A program made the position numbers and the translations under genes. The notes under the pieces were generated by a model. That model was not told where the DNA came from. It worked only from the letters and a program-made list of their open reading frames with translations, and made no database searches. From assembly GCA_002877985.1 (NCBI GenBank), contig PNIK01000091.1, forward strand, positions 1 through 32,201: 32,201 nucleotides of DNA. The letters run 5' to 3'. Positions 9 through 30,587 of this stretch are shown here, piece after piece. This stretch comes from Thermodesulfobacterium geofontis (GTDB lineage: Bacteria; Desulfobacterota; Thermodesulfobacteria; Thermodesulfobacteriales; Thermodesulfobacteriaceae). Numbering within the stretch: the stretch's first letter is position 1; each line of letters opens with the position of its first letter.

Positions 9-398
9 TTATTTCTTATGACACTCATTACATTTGGTTGGTGCAGCTTTTCCTTGTTCTGCATTTACTTTTTGATGACAGTCAATACAATTTTTATGAT
101 AAGCTAACATATTCTTGGGTGCATTTGGAGCTTTCTCAGTTCCTCCTGTCAATCCGTGACAGGTTGAACATTTTTGTACGCCTTTGGTAGGATCTTCTTC
201 TTTATGGTGGCAAACTTTACAATCTACTTTATACTCTTCAATGTGTTTTTGATGAGAAAATTTAACAGATGCCATTTTTGCACCTTCTACAAATATTTCA
301 CACTCTGTAGGAGGTGTTACCTGTTGAGCCAAAATGTATCCTCCTCCCATTAAAAACATTCCACTAAAAATTCCAATCAAAACTTTTTTAAGCCTCAT
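9..398 (-). CDS. Tetraheme cytochrome c3-family protein (class III), exported
   Basis: ORF with N-terminal hydrophobic signal and four CXXCH motifs (CKVCH, CSTCH, CIDCH, CNECH) with cytochrome c3-like spacing; near-perfect SD upstream. Confidence 0.9.
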   Translation of the reverse strand: MRLKKVLIGIFSGMFLMGGGYILAQQVTPPTECEIFVEGAKMASVKFSHQKHIEEYKVDCKVCHHKEEDPTKGVQKCSTCHGLTGGTEKAPNAPKNMLAYHKNCIDCHQKVNAEQGKAAPTKCNECHKK

Positions 399-431: not shown

Positions 432-1064
432 TTAATGTTCCTCTGGTTCTTCTTCATATCCTGTAATCATGGCAATAAAATGAGCCCAAAAGGTATGTCC
501 TAAACTTGCCAAATAAAAATGAACAATAATAAAAGCCGAAAAGAATATCCATAAAGCAACATGAATTAAAGAAACTATCTGAATTCCTCCTAAAATATCT
601 CCTAAAAACTTAAATTTTATAGGATCCCAAAGTACAAGACCTGTTAAAATTTGAAGAGGAATTAAAACTACCATAATCAAAAAATAAGCCACCTGCTGTA
701 AAGGATTAAATTTATTTTCTGGTGTAGGATGATGAGGATTTTTATCTCCTATCATAATTCCAAATCCATAATATATAGCTTGACGAATAGCTCTTTTTGT
801 AAAATCAATAGGTCTCCAGAAAGGAGGCAAATAAATTTTAAAAAATTTAAGGGTAGCAAAATAATAAATAAACCAGATAAAATAATTAGCAATTAGGATA
901 AAACCTGTCCAACTATGAATTTTAACAGCTGTTTGAAAGGACATTAAACCTATTTTATCTATCCACCTTATCTGAAGACCTGTAATTATAAGAATAATAA
1001 AACAAATAGCATTTATCCAATGCCAAATTCTTACGGGTATAGGATGTAAGTAGATTTTTTTCAT
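432..1064 (-). CDS. Cytochrome b561-like / thiosulfate reductase-type b-type cytochrome membrane subunit
   Basis: HPIPVRIWHWINA start and several His-bearing TM helices, typical of Ni/Fe-hydrogenase/thiosulfate reductase cytochrome b subunits. Confidence 0.85.
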   Translation of the reverse strand: MKKIYLHPIPVRIWHWINAICFIILIITGLQIRWIDKIGLMSFQTAVKIHSWTGFILIANYFIWFIYYFATLKFFKIYLPPFWRPIDFTKRAIRQAIYYGFGIMIGDKNPHHPTPENKFNPLQQVAYFLIMVVLIPLQILTGLVLWDPIKFKFLGDILGGIQIVSLIHVALWIFFSAFIIVHFYLASLGHTFWAHFIAMITGYEEEPEEH

Positions 1065-1067
1065 TTC

Positions 1068-3776
1068 TTAGCCTCCTCTTCTTCTTCTAATAGGTATGGT
1101 AATTATTCTCAAGAAAACATGTCCTATTGCTACACCAGCTCCCGCAATTAGAGCAATTATAAAAAGTGTATCCAGAATATTTATCTTAGTCAATCCCAAA
1201 ACATAGAAATCTTTAATATTAGGTATTGTATAAGCTGAATTCACTGCACTTCTTTCTAATTCAAATTTTTCCGGTTTTTCTCCTAATTTATTTATCTCTA
1301 ATCTTCCTTTAAAAATTGCTTCAGGATTATGACAAAAGGCACAATCTTTTACAGATTCTTTCTTAGAAACTATTTTATGAGCATCATCACTATTAACCAT
1401 CACCAATTTACCCATCAATTCTACCTTAGTCTTTTCTTTAAGCATATTCATAAATTTCCATAATTCATCTTTTTGTATTATTCCATCATTGTTATAATCA
1501 AGTAAAGTCTTCATTTCTGCAGGTTCTCTACCAATAACTTTAGAAATTTCTTCTAAAGTTACGGCATTTTTACCTGATGCTAAAATCAATCTGATAGCCT
1601 TTTCACCTTTAGTATGACAAACTTCACAAGAAACTGAACTAAAATGAACATCAACAAAACTTTCTAATTTAAAAGGAGGATTGTATAACCATTTGTTATG
1701 AATTTTTTTGAGATTTTTATCATGACAAACTATACAATTATTATTAATTTGAGCTATGTTAGTAGGTAATACTTTATGTGCGTTATGACAACTTGAACAT
1801 ACAGGGGCATCTTTTTTACCTTCTTCAAGAGCTTTATAGTGAATACTTTCTTTAAGGCTCTTATCTTCTTTATCATGACATCTCATACAGGTTTGATATC
1901 TTAGTTTTAAATCAGAAGTGATTTTAGGAGTATTATGATATCCGTGACACTTCAAACAATCTGGAGCTTCTTTATTTCCTTTTAAAATCGCCTTAGCATG
2001 AATACTTTCATTATATTCAAAAGACTCCTTTTTATGACAATTGGCACATATTTCTTGAGCTTTACTTCTGTACTCAGCAAGGGATTTAAAACTTCTTATG
2101 GGGTGAGTTCTGGTAGAAAAACCAATATGGCACTGGGAACATTTTAGATCCTTATGAGCTGAAGTTAAAATTTCCCTTTCATCCACTTTTACTGACAAAA
2201 TTTCTCCATTTTCCATCTTCTTTACTAAACTCATAGAGTGACAATTCATACAATATTTATTTTCTGGAACTCCTGCAGGAACTTTTAGTGATTTTACATT
2301 ATGATATCCGTGACAATCTATACAGGAAGCTGTTTTAGCAATGGCATAATGTGCGGGATTCTTCTTAAGTTCTTCATCAGTATGACAGGTTTGACATATG
2401 TTTTTGGAAAGATTTATTGCATATTCCTTCTTGTTTTTAAAATCATAACTTGGATGTTCTTTCTTAGAAAAACCTTTATGACAAACTATACATTCAAAAT
2501 TCTTATGAACTGATGCTTTAATTTGAGCCACATCCACTTTTACACTGATTTTTTCTCCACTAGATAATTTTTTATATAAATCTAATTTATGACAGCTCAT
2601 GCAATAATCTTCATACTTAACCTTTTCTTTCCATTCTTTAATTGATTGATTTTTATGGTATCCATGACAATCAATACAGAGAAAATTTTTCATTTCTATT
2701 ATTTTAGCATGACCTTTATGTCTTGAAAGTACATCCTTAGGATGACATCTATAACATCCAGCACTTACCTTTTCTGCATAAGCCCTTTTACTCTCTATAC
2801 GCATAGGACGAGGATGATTGGAAAAGTCTATACCCTGATGACAAACCCAACAACCCACATCTCCGTGAACGGTTTTCTTAAATACTTCCTTATCTACATA
2901 AAGATCCATCTCCTCACCGCTGGGAAGTACTTTTGGAAGTCTTCTTACAAAATGACATTTTAAGCATTTATCAGTTTCTTTAAGCCATTGAGCTCTTGAC
3001 TTTACATAATGATTACCATGACATCCAAAACAAACCATTCTATCCTCTTTAAGAAATTCCTTATGAATGGGAGATAAACTATTAAATGGATGACAATTTA
3101 AACAATTTTTATAGACTTTTTTTGCGTATTCCTGTTTAGAAGATATTTGTACAGGTCTGGGATGGGTAGCAGGATCTATATCTTTATGACAGAAAAGGCA
3201 ACCTAACTTTCCATGGATAGAATTTAAAAACTTTTCTTTTTCCACATAAAGATACATTTCCTCTCCATTTGGGAGAACCTTAGGAAGTCTTTTCACAGTA
3301 TGGCATTCCAAACATTTTTCCCCATCCTTAGTCAATTCTTTTATGGGTTTAATATAATGAGAACCGTGACACTCTGCGCAAGATATTTTCCCTTCCTTAA
3401 GAATATTTTTATGAATTGGAGACAAGCCGTCTTCTGGATGGCAGTTGGCACAATTTTGAGAAACCTTTTTGGTGTATTCCAATTTACTTGCTATTTTTAA
3501 AGGTCTTGGATGGGTAGCAAGATCTATATCTGCATGACAGTCGGTACAACTAAGACTCCCATGGACAGAATTTAAAAATTTTTCTTTGTCTATATAAAGA
3601 TCCATTGCTTCTCCGCTGGAAAGCATTTTAGGCAATCTTTTTACTGAATGACACTTTAAACAACTGTTTTCACTTTTTGCAAAAGTAAGATTTCCAGAAA
3701 ATATGTAAAGACAAACAAAAACTGACAAAAATACTAATGCCCCCAAAATATAAAATAATCTATGACTTAATTTCAT
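1068..3776 (-). CDS. Membrane-anchored multiheme cytochrome c with 25 CXXCH motifs, tandem four-heme modules and an EF-hand
   Basis: 902-aa ORF; N-terminal signal/TM; 25 CXXCH counted by eye; five repeats starting with CxxCHxxxxLxKxLxxGE; C-terminal TM followed by RRRRGG. Confidence 0.9.
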   Translation of the reverse strand: MKLSHRLFYILGALVFLSVFVCLYIFSGNLTFAKSENSCLKCHSVKRLPKMLSSGEAMDLYIDKEKFLNSVHGSLSCTDCHADIDLATHPRPLKIASKLEYTKKVSQNCANCHPEDGLSPIHKNILKEGKISCAECHGSHYIKPIKELTKDGEKCLECHTVKRLPKVLPNGEEMYLYVEKEKFLNSIHGKLGCLFCHKDIDPATHPRPVQISSKQEYAKKVYKNCLNCHPFNSLSPIHKEFLKEDRMVCFGCHGNHYVKSRAQWLKETDKCLKCHFVRRLPKVLPSGEEMDLYVDKEVFKKTVHGDVGCWVCHQGIDFSNHPRPMRIESKRAYAEKVSAGCYRCHPKDVLSRHKGHAKIIEMKNFLCIDCHGYHKNQSIKEWKEKVKYEDYCMSCHKLDLYKKLSSGEKISVKVDVAQIKASVHKNFECIVCHKGFSKKEHPSYDFKNKKEYAINLSKNICQTCHTDEELKKNPAHYAIAKTASCIDCHGYHNVKSLKVPAGVPENKYCMNCHSMSLVKKMENGEILSVKVDEREILTSAHKDLKCSQCHIGFSTRTHPIRSFKSLAEYRSKAQEICANCHKKESFEYNESIHAKAILKGNKEAPDCLKCHGYHNTPKITSDLKLRYQTCMRCHDKEDKSLKESIHYKALEEGKKDAPVCSSCHNAHKVLPTNIAQINNNCIVCHDKNLKKIHNKWLYNPPFKLESFVDVHFSSVSCEVCHTKGEKAIRLILASGKNAVTLEEISKVIGREPAEMKTLLDYNNDGIIQKDELWKFMNMLKEKTKVELMGKLVMVNSDDAHKIVSKKESVKDCAFCHNPEAIFKGRLEINKLGEKPEKFELERSAVNSAYTIPNIKDFYVLGLTKINILDTLFIIALIAGAGVAIGHVFLRIITIPIRRRRGG
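1464..1499 (-). other. EF-hand Ca-binding loop DYNNDGIIQKDE within the multiheme cytochrome
   Basis: 12-residue D-x-N-x-D-G-I-x-Q-x-x-E loop followed by a predicted helix (LWKFMNMLKEK). Confidence 0.8.
1935..3662 (-). repeat. Five tandem protein-level repeats of a four-CXXCH module (about 116, 116, 121, 117, 121 aa)
   Basis: First Cys codon of each unit at 3662, 3314, 2966, 2603, 2252; next heme block starts at 1889. Confidence 0.85.
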
Positions 3777-3964: not shown

Positions 3965-4516
3965 TTATTTTTGAACTTTTAACTCTGTATAAATTTTCAA
4001 TATATTTTTACAACCTTCACATAATTGTTTATCTTTTCTATCTGTATCTAAAATAGAATTAGAAAAAGCCATCACGCATTTAGGATTTTCACAATGGGGT
4101 AGATAAAAAAGATGTCCCAATTCATGAGTAGCCTCTTTTAAAATTCTTTCTAAAAAAAGTTTTTCATTTGGTTTTTGTCCGTAAAACTCAGGTTTAAGTC
4201 TTGTTAAAGAAATTATTCCTATACCCGATCTTATGTCTGCTTGACCAAAAATAAAATTCAACCCTGAAGCATAAAGATCAACATCTACAACGAGTAACCA
4301 CTTTTCTTTAGGATCTTTTTTTAGTTTTTTTGCCTCTCCCATTATAATATCTGCCAAATATTGATTTTTTCTAAAATCATAAGCTTTAGAAATGTCCAAG
4401 TAAAGGTAAGCTATATCAAGTTGTGAAGAATAGATATTTTTAAGATGTTCTTTTAAATTCTCAAGTTCTTTCTCTTTTAAAGTACAAAAAAGAAATTTAA
4501 TGGAGATTTTGTTCAT
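3965..4516 (-). CDS. amzA: Archaemetzincin family zinc metalloprotease
   Basis: HELGHLFYLPHCENPKCVM...CEGC matches HEXXHXXGX3HCX4CXM-CXXC of archaemetzincins. Confidence 0.9.
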   Translation of the reverse strand: MNKISIKFLFCTLKEKELENLKEHLKNIYSSQLDIAYLYLDISKAYDFRKNQYLADIIMGEAKKLKKDPKEKWLLVVDVDLYASGLNFIFGQADIRSGIGIISLTRLKPEFYGQKPNEKLFLERILKEATHELGHLFYLPHCENPKCVMAFSNSILDTDRKDKQLCEGCKNILKIYTELKVQK

Positions 4517-4621: not shown

Positions 4622-6400
4622 ATGAGCTTAAAAAAATTCTTTTCCTTGTTTTTTATTTTTATTTTCTCCTTTTTATTAATTTCCTATATTTTCATCTATA
4701 AGTTTTTAGAATTTGGATTTTTATCCTTAAAGAAAGAAGAAGCTAAAAAAGTTATAAGTAAAGTTGAATTTTATTTCCAAAAAGAACTTGATAAATTACA
4801 CAATTTAACAAAAGATTGGGCTGCTTGGGATGAAGCATATCTTTTTATGCAAAATAAACAGCCATATTTTATAAAATCTAATATTATTCCAGAAACCTAT
4901 TTAAACCTTAAAATAGATCTACTTCTCTACACATATTTAAATGGGGGTATCAAAGCAGGAGGTCTTTTTAATAAAGAAAATAAAAAAATTTATATTAACA
5001 AAGAAATTTTGCATCTTGTTAAATCTACACTTGAAAAATTTTCTAAAAAAAATCAATATAATTATAAAAAACTAATTATTTTCATAAATAAGCCTTTTAT
5101 ATTAGCTGTTTATCCTGTTTTAAGATCTGATTTTACAGGTGTTCCTAAAGGATACCTTTTTATGGGAAAATTCTTAACTTCTGAAGAATTAGATACTGTA
5201 GCCAATCTATTTAATATAAAGGAATTAAAAATTCTTAAGTCTGATAAACCTTCACCAGAAATTAATTTTATAAAAGTCGACCTTAAAGAAGTTATTTTGG
5301 AAAAAACCTGGTTTTTAAATGATCAAGCCTTAAAATTAAGGATGGGTTATATTGTTGTTGGAGAATCCTTAATAAGATCTTTTATTTTTTATGTAGTAAT
5401 TACACAGATATCTTTACTTTTGATATTTGCTATAATGGTATCATTCTTAATAGATAAACACATTTTAAAACCTCTATTAAAACTTCTTAAAGAAATTGAT
5501 CAAGTAAAAAATAAAGAAAAAACAAGACTTTCCTTAGAATATAATACCAAGGAATATGAAAATTTAGCTAAAGTTATAAATAAATTTTTAGAGGATATTT
5601 CTATAAGAGAAAATATTTACAAGACAGTGGCAGAAAAAACTGAGAATCTGATCATACTCTTTGACAAAGAAAGAAATATAATTTTCCAAAACACAAATAC
5701 AAAAATATACTTCAACTCAGAAGAGCTTAAATCTTTTATAAATAAATTTTTAGAAGAAGCAAAGGGTTTAAATTTCTCCGAAGGGAAGTTGAAGATTAAT
5801 GAAATTTCTTTCAAAAATTACTGGTTCAATTTTCAAGTAATTAAGGTTTTTAAGGATTTATATTTATTAATTGGACAAAATATTACTGAATTAAAATTAA
5901 AGGAAGATGCTCTTTTCAGAATGGCTACTCATGATTTCTTAACGGATCTTTATAATCGCAGATACTTAGAGGATGTCTTACAAAGAATCGCGGCAGCCTC
6001 AAAGAGGGGGGAAAAATTTGTATTGTTATTTATAGACTGTAACGACCTTAAAAAAATAAATGATCTTTATGGCCATTTAGTAGGAGATGAAGTTTTAAAG
6101 AGTGTTGCTAAAGCTATAAAAGAAAATATTAGAAAGGAGGATTTAGCATCTCGCTGGGGAGGAGATGAGTTTGTAGTAATTTTAAATCACTGTGATAAAA
6201 ATACAGGAATAAAAATTGCTGAAAGAATAATTAGCAATTTAGAATCCTCAGAAATCAAAACAGATTTTGCAAAAATTAAACCTAGTGTAAGTATAGGGCT
6301 TGTGGAAATTGATGAAACTAAAGAAATAAATGAAATATTAAATTTAGCAGATAAACTTTCTTACAAATCTAAAGAAACAGGAAAAATAGAATATGATTAA
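4622..6400 (+). CDS. Membrane CHASE4-like/HAMP/PAS-like/GGDEF diguanylate cyclase
   Basis: N-terminal [14 protein letters not shown] (CHASE4-like), second TM, RWGGDEF with upstream RKED I-site. Confidence 0.9.
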
Positions 6401-6404
6401 AAAA

Positions 6405-6478
6405 TCGGGGCGAGAGGATTTGAACCTCCGACCCCCTGCTCCCAAGGCAGGTGCGCTTCCAGGCTGCGCCACGCCCCG
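6405..6478 (-). tRNA. tRNA-Pro (anticodon UGG)
   Basis: Reverse complement CGGGGCG...CCTGC-CTTGGGA-GCAGG...GGTTCAAATCC...CGCCCCGA folds as a cloverleaf; CCA not encoded. Confidence 0.93.
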
Positions 6479-6510: not shown

Positions 6511-7105
6511 TCAGCAAAATACAAGTTTTGTATGTGCCCATACCATTTGAGATGGAGATTAATTTTTTTTATCCTCTATTCCATTATGCGGTCTCTCCGT
6601 ATTATATCATAATAAATATTCCAATTAAATTCCTGTTAAATCCATCTAAATCTTCTTCTAATTGCCACTTGATAAATTACTTGCATAATAACTTAACTTT
6701 GATCTTTCCTCCCATCGAAGTAACCCCTTTCCTTCAAATACTTTTATAATTCTTCCTATAGTTGAAACTGATATACATTTAATCCCCTTCTCCTTACAAT
6801 ATCTATCAACTACAGGCTTTAACTTCTCTTTACCTATCTTTGGATGCTCTCTTCTATAATTCAAAATAAATTTTTCTTTTAGCAATTCTTGGCTTTGATA
6901 TGAGACTCTCAAGCTTGCCTCCACTCTCCCTAAACTGCTTCTTCCAACGATATATAGTTGCTCGAGAAATACCATATGCAGAAACTTCCGCAGATGTCTC
7001 ATATTTGTGATGATACTCAATTACCTTAAGTCTAAAATCACTTCCTACCTTTTTAGAAGCATCTCCAATTGATGAAAGCCTTTCAGCCATTTTTGCATCC
7101 CATTT
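6511..7105 (-). pseudogene. Degenerate, internally deleted IS481/IS3-like transposase remnant
   Basis: HTH part (AERLSSIGDASKK...YGISRATIYRWKKQFRE), frameshift, then REHPKIGKEKLKPVVDRYCKEKGI..VSTIGRIIK, then directly EEDLDGFNRNL...YNTERPHNGIEDKKN*SPSQMVWAHT; DDE core absent. Confidence 0.8.
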
Positions 7106-28047: not shown

Positions 28048-28059
28048 AAAAATTTAAAA

Positions 28060-28555
28060 ATGTTAAAAGAAAAAATACCAAGAATTAACTGAACTATTAC
28101 TCAAAGAAATTAAAGAATTTTATAAAGATCGACTTGTATCTGTAGTTCTTTTTGGTTCTGTTGCCAGAAAAACTCAAAGATTTGATTCAGATATAGATAT
28201 TCTTCTTGTGATAAAAGATCTTCCAAGAGGTCGATTAAATAGAGTTTTAGAATTTTTATGCAAATTGAAGAAAAAATAGAAAATTATTTAAAAAAATTTA
28301 GAAAATTTGGGCATATATATCCATATTTCTCCTGTTTTAAAAACACCGGAAGAAGTAAAAAGGGGAAGTCCTCTATTTTTAGATTTAGTGGAAGATGCTA
28401 AAATTCTTTATGATAAAGAGAATTTTTTTAAAAATAAATTAGAAGAAATTAAAGAAAAATTAAAGAAATGGGGAGCTAAACGTTATTGGCTGGGGAATGC
28501 ATGGTATTGGATTTTAAAACCTGATATAAAGCCTGGAGAAAGTATTGAATTATGA
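28060..28555 (+). pseudogene. MNT-type minimal nucleotidyltransferase, frameshifted
   Basis: VVLFGSVARKTQRFDSDIDILLV (GSx10DxD) with three frame changes near A6 28070-28075, T5 28253-28257 and A7 28290-28296; the provided ORF 28307-28555 is its C-terminal part. Confidence 0.85.
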
Positions 28556-28960
28556 CTTTTGAAGATTTAGCTAAAAGCTATATAAAAAAAGCTAAAGTTA
28601 GACTTGAAATGTTAGAATTCTTATATAAAAAGGAAGCTTATTCGATGTAATAAGAGAAGCTCAAGAAGCTGTTGAATTAGCTACAAAGGCTATGCTTAGA
28701 CAAAGAGGAATTGAGCCTCCAAAATATCATGATGTAAGTTCTCTATTTTTTTATCATAAAGATAAATTTCTTGAATTTACAGAAGAAGAAATTAAAAAAT
28801 TACAAAAATTTCAAAATTTTTAAGAAAAGAAAGAGAACTTTCCTTTTATGGAGATATAGATTTTATTCCTACTGAAGAATATACAGCAGAAGAGGCAAAT
28901 ATTGCCATTGAAGGAGCTAAATTTATAATTTCCCTTGCTGAAAAAATTATTAAAATTTAA
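28552..28960 (+). pseudogene. HEPN domain protein, frameshifted partner of the MNT gene
   Basis: MTFEDLAKSYIKKAKVRLEMLEFLYKKEAYS/DVIREAQEAVELATKAMLRQRGIEPPKYHDVS.../KFLRKERELSFYGD..; ATGA overlap with MNT; two frameshifts. Confidence 0.85.
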
Positions 28961-29166
28961 CTTTTCTCTAAATAATTTTTCAAAATTTCATAATTAAAAC
29001 TTACAATTTCTTGATAGGTTTTTTTGTTTTCAGCTATTTCTTCCAGATCTCCTTCCATTTGGGAAGTAAATTTATAATCTAAAAATTTGGGAAATCTTTT
29101 TGCCAAAAATTCACAAACTTCTTTCCCAAGCTCTGTAGGTTTTAAATAGCTCTTTTCTTTTATCAC
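28957..29166 (-). CDS. Topoisomerase I C-terminal fragment (separate ORF after a frameshift)
   Basis: VIKEKSYLKPTELGKEVCEFLAKRFPKFLDYKFTSQMEGDLEEIAENK continues the topoisomerase IA family sequence; GTGA overlap with the upstream ORF. Confidence 0.8.
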   Translation of the reverse strand: MIKEKSYLKPTELGKEVCEFLAKRFPKFLDYKFTSQMEGDLEEIAENKKTYQEIVSFNYEILKNYLEKS

Positions 29167-30587
29167 ATATTTTCTTTTATAATATCAAGTAAAGTGGCAT
29201 AGGTAGATGGTCTTCCAATACCCATAGATTCAAGCTTTTTGATTAAAGTTGAAGAAGTATATCTGGAAGGTGGTTCAGTAATATGTTCTTTAATTCTCCA
29301 TTCGGAAACTTCAAAAGTTTCTTTTATCCTTAAATCTACAAATTCATTCTCTTCTTCTTGGTTTCTAAATATTTTTAAAAATCCCTCAAAAATAAGTTTT
29401 CTGTAAGTACTTTTGAAAATATAATCTTTTTCCAAATTTTTGTGAGTAAAAATATAGGTTCTTAGAAGATATTCTGCAGGAACCATCTGACTTGCTATAA
29501 AAAAAGACCTTATAAGTTTATAAAGTTTTTTCTCAGGCTCAGAAAGAGGAACATCTTCTCTATAAATATCCGTTGGTCTTATACATTCATGCGCATCTTG
29601 AACAAATCTATTCTTTTTGATATTTATTTTTTGGGCTACAAATTTCCTCCCAAAATATAACTCTATAAACTCTTTGGCCAATTTTTTAGCGTATTCACTC
29701 ACTCTTACAGAATCAGTCCTCATATAGGTAATATACCCATTTTCATAAAGCCTCTGAGCATAATACATAGTCTGCTTTGGCTCATATCCCAAAAACTTTT
29801 GAGATATTTCAATCAAAGTGGTTGTTTTCAGAGGCAAAGGAGGATTTTTCTTTTCAATCCTTTCTTCTATCTTTTCGAGAGTTATAAAGTCCTTTGAAAG
29901 CTTTTCTTTAAAAAATTTTATCAACTTTTCTTTATTTTTTGTCTTATAAAGTTTATTTTTATAATAAAGCCCAGCTGAAATTTCTGTGTAATCTTTTTTT
30001 AATTTAATTTCCAAGGAATAACTTTTTTCAGGAACAAAATTTTCTATTTCTCTTTCCCTTTCTACAATAAGTCTTAAAGCCACACTTTGAACCCTTCCAG
30101 CTGAAAGGCTTTTTTTAAAGTTCTTCGAGAGTTGTGGTGAAATTAAATAACCTATAAGTCTATCTAAAACTCTTCTTGTAAGCCAGGATTGATAAAGGTA
30201 TGGATTTATTTCTCTTAGATTAGAAAGTGCTTTTTTTAAGCCATTCTCAGTAATTTCTATTAAATCAAGTCTTTTAAATTTGAGTTCAGGTTTAATTTTA
30301 GAAAGGTATTCATAAAAATGATAAGCAATAGCTTCTCCTTCTCTGTCAGGATCTGTAGCAAGATATACTTCTTTTACTTGAGAACCTATTTTTTTTATCT
30401 CTGAAAGAACTTTTCTTTTATTTGAAAGCCACTCCAAGGTTGGTTTAAAAGTATTTAAATCAATACCCAATTTAACCTTTGGAAGATCTCTTATATGTCC
30501 AAAGGTAGCTCTAAAAATAAAACCTTCTTTAAGAAATTTTTGTAGAGTTTTAATTTTAGTAGGTGACTCTACCACAAAAAGTATCAT
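29163..30587 (-). CDS. topA: DNA topoisomerase I (type IA), Toprim + catalytic core
   Basis: FVVESPTKIKTLQKFL, ATDPDREGEAIAYHF (Toprim), LSAGRVQSVALRLIVEREREI, YITYMRTDS (active Tyr), GIGRPSTYATLL. Confidence 0.93.
   Translation of the reverse strand: MILFVVESPTKIKTLQKFLKEGFIFRATFGHIRDLPKVKLGIDLNTFKPTLEWLSNKRKVLSEIKKIGSQVKEVYLATDPDREGEAIAYHFYEYLSKIKPELKFKRLDLIEITENGLKKALSNLREINPYLYQSWLTRRVLDRLIGYLISPQLSKNFKKSLSAGRVQSVALRLIVEREREIENFVPEKSYSLEIKLKKDYTEISAGLYYKNKLYKTKNKEKLIKFFKEKLSKDFITLEKIEERIEKKNPPLPLKTTTLIEISQKFLGYEPKQTMYYAQRLYENGYITYMRTDSVRVSEYAKKLAKEFIELYFGRKFVAQKINIKKNRFVQDAHECIRPTDIYREDVPLSEPEKKLYKLIRSFFIASQMVPAEYLLRTYIFTHKNLEKDYIFKSTYRKLIFEGFLKIFRNQEEENEFVDLRIKETFEVSEWRIKEHITEPPSRYTSSTLIKKLESMGIGRPSTYATLLDIIKENM

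Follow-up and report, generated by a model that had tools for sequence, protein, structure and literature searches.

A 25-heme, membrane-anchored CbcA-type cytochrome built from tandem tetraheme modules in Thermodesulfobacterium

The 25-heme cytochrome and its operon

The window (the whole stretch of 32,201 nucleotides from Thermodesulfobacterium geofontis that was analyzed) begins with an operon on the reverse strand that encodes a large multiheme cytochrome c, a cytochrome b, and a small tetraheme cytochrome, past which the contig ends (Table 1). The translation of the first gene (902 residues) contains exactly 25 CXXCH motifs, as counted in the first-pass annotation, and the five units said to hold the first 20 hemes have precisely the lengths given there (116, 116, 121, 117, and 121 amino acids). 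The annotation had further described the protein as exported and membrane-anchored, which agrees with hydropathy analysis: a hydrophobic segment is present at the N terminus, and both a transmembrane helix and the motif RRRRGG are found at the C terminus.

Table 1. Features of the 25-heme cytochrome and its operon (window positions)
Feature	Position	Strand	Basis
CbcA-type 25-heme membrane-anchored cytochrome c, 902 aa	1068..3776	-	sequence, profiles, gene pairing
N-terminal export signal, aa 1-33 (hydrophobic 3-28; cleavage possible after TFA)	3678..3776	-	sequence and hydropathy
Tetraheme module 1, aa 36-151	3324..3671	-	
Tetraheme module 2, aa 152-267	2976..3323	-	
Tetraheme module 3, aa 268-388	2613..2975	-	
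Tetraheme module 4, aa 389-505	2262..2612	-	
Tetraheme module 5, aa 506-626	1899..2261	-	
Half module, hemes 21-22, aa about 627-677	1746..1898	-	heme spacings
CbcA-type membrane-proximal domain, hemes 23-25, aa about 678-843	1248..1745	-	PDB 28pb profile match, phylum-wide family
EF-hand loop DYNNDGIIQKDE, aa 760-771, hemes 24/25 interval	1464..1499	-	PF13202, below cut-off
C-terminal transmembrane helix, aa about 867-892, then RRRRGG	1101..1178	-	hydropathy, alignment
CbcB-type cytochrome b (PF01292), 210 aa, directly downstream of the 25-heme gene	432..1064	-	domain match and tree
Tetraheme class III cytochrome c (c3/TmcA-like), third gene of the operon	9..398	-	domain match

The five modules are followed by a half module, whose two hemes show the same spacing as hemes 3-4 of module 5, and by a membrane-proximal domain with the last three hemes. 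The EF-hand loop of this domain is invariant at D1, N3, and E12 in the nine relatives aligned. Leaving aside the histidines of the signal peptide and the transmembrane helix, and counting H353/H356 once, the protein possesses 25 histidines outside the CXXCH motifs for its 25 hemes. Nine aligned proteins all keep the candidate distal histidines found in units 4 and 5 and in the C-terminal domain, and nearly all of the candidates are invariant among those relatives that possess the unit in question. Judged from the sequence, this conservation makes bis-His ligation of all 25 hemes likely. The transmembrane helix also carries a histidine, His-886 (window positions 1119-1121), which is invariant in all nine aligned proteins (9/9) and may be a ligand or provide a quinone contact with cytochrome b.

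The 25-heme form also occurs in the complete, single-contig genome G004 and in the named record CALLJG010000005.1, and it is therefore not an assembly artifact. Compared with G004, the units show dN/dS values of 0.06-0.12, indicating that they are under purifying selection. The gene for cytochrome b comes next in every relative examined, and the tetraheme c3 gene keeps its position in most of them, as seen in the comparison of flanking genes that the first-pass annotation had suggested.

AlphaFold models of the full protein (two alignment rows; mean pLDDT 29.6) and of modules 1-2 (eight rows; pLDDT 60, pTM 0.43) were too poor for heme placement, and a Foldseek search with the model of modules 1-2 returned no match at E < 5. 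If fully extended, the long heme wire pictured in the first-pass annotation would span ∼20 nm with its 25 hemes, as estimated from heme spacings.

The operon is bordered by a gene for an archaemetzincin (peptidase M54; 3965-4516, reverse strand), and an M54-like gene holds this place in relatives as well. A CHASE4-GGDEF diguanylate cyclase (4622-6400, forward strand) adjoins the operon, and a short reading frame resembling an integrase or transposase fragment (6658-7020, reverse strand) lies near a tRNA-Pro gene (6405-6478). Elsewhere in the window, a topoisomerase I-like reading frame (29163-30587, reverse strand) comprises only 474 amino acids, and the ∼1.1 kb that follow it (28048-29162) contain no open reading frame of more than 82 amino acids; the gene is possibly truncated or frame-broken.

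Kinship to CbcA and CbcB

When the last five hemes and the transmembrane helix were used as a profile, the structure with PDB code 28pb was matched (E 3.7e-18). Searching with a profile of a single module, as proposed in the first-pass annotation, gave matches to hemes 1-4 both in this structure (E 1.4e-7) and in ten CbcA-type proteins with seven hemes (best-domain E 1e-8 to 1e-18). Chain A of 28pb, a 278-residue heptaheme "cytochrome c," is thus a solved relative of both the module and the C-terminal domain; it contains one tetraheme unit, stops just short of the transmembrane helix, and shares 66% identity with the ectodomain of a 7-heme relative (L044).

Profile searches located the domain in 34 of 297 genomes of the phylum. 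In all 24 phylum loci inspected (24/24), a gene for cytochrome b lies directly downstream of that for the cytochrome c, which mostly carries 7 or 13 hemes. In a phylogenetic tree, these partner cytochromes b form one clade (support 100/100) distinct from the cytochromes b linked to hydrogenases in the family and order. The CbcA/CbcB layout of Geobacter combines a heptaheme cytochrome c that ends in a transmembrane helix with a neighboring b-type cytochrome. The name CbcBA was assigned here from this architecture and from the partner gene; the kinship to the pair of 7-heme cytochrome and cytochrome b was tested directly.

The protein shares with CbcA of Geobacter and Seep-SRB2 a tetraheme unit at the N terminus that is homologous to the repeat, three more hemes, the last of them preceded by an EF-hand, a single C-terminal transmembrane helix, and an adjacent CbcB-type cytochrome b. 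However, it contains 25 hemes instead of the seven of the canonical loci inspected, in five full and one half tetraheme units plus the membrane-proximal domain, and on sequence grounds it is classed as an enlarged CbcA variant and not as a canonical CbcA. The locus also differs from canonical CbcBA loci in its third gene, which encodes a tetraheme c3 here but a 7-8-heme cytochrome in several of them, and in the occurrence of split and fused versions within one genus. Most of the remaining loci of the phylum carry 13 hemes, and many of these arose when the whole EF-hand ectodomain was doubled. Such 13-heme CbcA variants with two EF-hand domains (L012, L037, L038, L041, L042, L051, and L053-L056) have the same cytochrome b partner and were likewise enlarged by internal duplication. 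Whereas they doubled the ectodomain once, the 25-heme protein multiplied the tetraheme unit instead.

Models of other multiheme families did not account for the protein. It has no match to the HmcA model NF045713 (cut-off 400 bits), and it stays below the cut-offs for DmsE/MtrA decahemes (TIGR03508, 114.8 bits over five stretches versus 192.2), GSU2203 decahemes (NF041028, 85 versus 325 bits), OmcA/MtrC decahemes (TIGR03507, 39.4 versus 209.3 bits), NrfH/NapC (TIGR03153, 41.7 versus 134.2 bits), and QrcA (NF041781, 30.4 versus 180 bits). The first-pass annotation had set its layout apart from HmcA, NrfH, and OmcA, which holds true insofar as the protein reaches the cut-off of none of these three models; the layout is not an isolated novelty, though, but that of an enlarged CbcA/CbcB. 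Neither the EF-hand nor the cytochrome b that accompanies it had been mentioned in that annotation. HmcA, with 16 hemes, is likewise a large multiheme cytochrome at the inner membrane that is fed by c3, but unlike the 25-heme protein it consists of class III c3-type repeats and has NrfD and FeS partners. A true HmcA is encoded elsewhere in the same genome (502 bits versus a cut-off of 400).

A search of named genomes yielded one true relative (L020) in addition to matches from Nitrospira (L021-L024) that are 24% identical over short stretches only, and a plasmid search gave zero matches. Our literature search found no paper on CbcBA in Thermodesulfobacterium; the one paper containing both terms is about Geobacter.

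Growth and shrinkage of the heme array

Outside the heme motifs, the five units are 28-57% identical in pairwise comparison, with z-scores of 7 to 28 against shuffled sequences in which the heme residues were held fixed. The all-versus-all alignment called for in the first-pass annotation thus extends well beyond CXXCH. Units 1-3 group together, as do units 4-5.

Within Thermodesulfobacterium, the fused array comprises 25 hemes in four genomes (G000, which contains the window, G004, G008, and G009), 21 in G007, and 17 in G012. Elsewhere in the genus, the array is split into two open reading frames, of which the second starts just ahead of module 4. The division is 12 + 13 hemes in G010 and G013 and also in G001, where it is cut at the contig end, and in G006, where it contains a frame break; G002 shows a division into 8 + 13 hemes. 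A TAATG overlap joins both reading frames in G010, G001, and G006. The frame shift in G006 affects the 13-heme reading frame (L011, contig C9) in its EF-hand region, around positions 1474-1492, and marks either a pseudogene or a sequencing error.

In a tree of the modules, units 3, 4, and 5 are largely orthologous across the genus, whereas the outermost units are variable. The 17-heme G012, whose assembly is fragmented and 82% complete, is sister to the 25-heme G008, which indicates that arrays also shrink. Moreover, units 1 and 2 of G008 share an exact repeat of 104 bp, and units 1 and 3 of G009 share one of 87 bp, pointing to recent exchange between units at the DNA level. Together, the module tree, the length polymorphism in the genus, and these exact repeats strongly support the earlier suggestion that the protein grew by module duplication. 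The array is best explained by duplication of CbcA's own N-terminal tetraheme unit, with intragenic recombination that still exchanges and shortens units. Further large, repeat-built multiheme cytochromes were noted at G002:C5:210188-213201 and G019:C1:90462-93487, where frames of 400-670 amino acids give many weak matches to decaheme families.

A candidate route from periplasmic c3 to menaquinone

All 12 genomes of the genus with a full [NiFe]-hydrogenase encode a Tat-exported small subunit of ∼305 amino acids that lacks a C-terminal transmembrane helix, and in none of them (0/12) does a cytochrome b lie beside the large subunit. Beyond the genus, all readable loci in the family and order have a cytochrome b at this place. 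Of the 12 hydrogenase-bearing genomes of the genus, 11 encode a CbcA-type protein (G011, the exception, is only 70% complete), as against 0/16 elsewhere in the family; neither hydrogenase nor CbcA is present in G003 and G005. Among the genomes of the order with a hydrogenase-linked cytochrome b, G030 has a 13-heme CbcA-type protein with two EF-hands, and the others have no match. Within the family, the association between hydrogenase type and CbcA gives a Fisher p of 1e-5, uncorrected for shared ancestry; the number of independent events behind the correlation is small, essentially one.

The FdhAB-type formate dehydrogenases of G004 and G000 are also Tat-exported alpha-beta pairs without a neighboring cytochrome b. 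Two of the alpha subunits (L150 and L152) contain one in-frame TGA, probably encoding selenocysteine, and G004 has a TGA-free paralog in addition. G004 matches the isolate T. geofontis OPF15, which uses only hydrogen or formate as electron donors and does not grow on organic acids or alcohols (PMC3624685). No genome of the order reached the cut-off for QrcA, although two other members of the phylum do match, and Thermodesulfobacteriales have been described as lacking Qrc (PMC10553843). With neither enzyme linked to a cytochrome b and with Qrc absent, periplasmic electrons need another route into the membrane. In G007 (99% complete), which combines a soluble-type hydrogenase with CbcA and has neither Hmc nor Qrc above cut-off, the CbcBA-like complex is the only recognized route. 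For Seep-SRB2, CbcBA has been proposed to replace Qrc in the direction of quinone (PMC10553843).

We consider it probable (roughly 0.6) that the complex is an enlarged CbcBA acting as a periplasmic cytochrome c3:menaquinone oxidoreductase. The soluble [NiFe]-hydrogenase and the formate dehydrogenase of the periplasm would reduce tetraheme c3, which would in turn donate electrons to the 25-heme CbcA. Anchored in the inner membrane, CbcA would use its tandem modules as an extended relay of bis-His hemes, and its membrane-proximal three-heme/EF-hand domain would pass the electrons on to CbcB, which would reduce menaquinone and thereby supply Qmo and APS reductase. The complex would thus substitute for Qrc or for the hydrogenase cytochrome b of other sulfate reducers; QrcABCD, a cytochrome c3:menaquinone reductase, has the function proposed here but a different architecture. 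We infer the electron path, its direction, quinone as the substrate, and the linear geometry. Several observations count against this role: Hmc, present in 9 of the 11 CbcA-bearing genomes, could take the electrons of c3 instead; the operons of G002 and G007 lack the c3 gene; and the hydrogenase of Ca. T. syntrophicum has been described as membrane-bound (PMC10322722).

The direction of electron flow may also be reversed, as CbcBA of Geobacter is described as a quinol oxidase for low-potential respiration that runs in the menaquinol-oxidizing direction near -0.2 V (PMC12307469). The complex would then serve extracellular electron transfer, from menaquinol through CbcB and the 25-heme wire to outer-membrane cytochromes, and a possible partner is encoded in the window's genome, where a GSU2203-family decaheme lipoprotein is followed by a GSU2204-family protein (L129; G000:C31, 1-2340). 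However, the GSU2203-type decaheme exceeds its cut-off in only 2 of the 11 CbcA-bearing genomes (G000 and G012) and not in the complete genomes G004, G010, and G013, so that a conduit of this type was rejected as an obligate partner at the outer membrane. The known isolates, moreover, respire sulfate with reductases located in the cytoplasm, and a menaquinol oxidase seems rather unlikely to us. We also doubt, somewhat more strongly, that the covalent 25-heme wire of an inner-membrane quinone oxidoreductase crosses much of the periplasm and directly contacts the outer membrane or its proteins, with a reach tuned in evolution by gain and loss of modules (13 + 8 or 12 split; 17, 21, or 25 fused).

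The electrons could, alternatively, enter from an archaeal partner across the outer membrane, with the same chemistry toward menaquinone as in the c3-dependent reading but a different donor. Thermodesulfobacterium species are indeed partners of ANME-1c and of alkane-oxidizing archaea (PMC9539880, PMC10322722), cytochromes of Ca. T. torris carry up to 26 heme motifs (PMC9539880), and an interspecies role was proposed for CbcBA in Seep-SRB2 (PMC10553843). Yet the complex also occurs in G004, the match to a free-living isolate, and only one of six multiheme cytochromes of Ca. T. syntrophicum was slightly enriched (PMC10322722), which leaves direct interspecies transfer distinctly improbable as the main role. 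That the extra hemes mainly store electrons, buffering the periplasm without added reach or a catalytic route, would fit with heme numbers that vary from 17 to 25 and with arrays split into two proteins, both of which suggest that the exact length is uncritical. The strict pairing with cytochrome b and the conserved membrane-proximal domain nevertheless imply a role in throughput too, and a mere capacitor appears very improbable.

Up to 26 heme motifs were already reported for cytochromes of Ca. T. torris, so that high heme numbers were known from the genus; our contribution is to recognize the protein as a CbcA of enlarged and variable length and to link it to the type of hydrogenase. In the literature we found, reduction of the quinone pool in Thermodesulfobacteriales grown on H2 or formate is unexplained, and the c3-dependent CbcBA complex is a specific candidate for it. 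The genus includes partners of methane- and alkane-oxidizing archaea, and one of the genomes matches a cultured isolate. With 17, 21, and 25 hemes and with split versions, Thermodesulfobacterium offers naturally occurring length variants of the same heme wire, useful for studying the effects of wire length on electron transfer.
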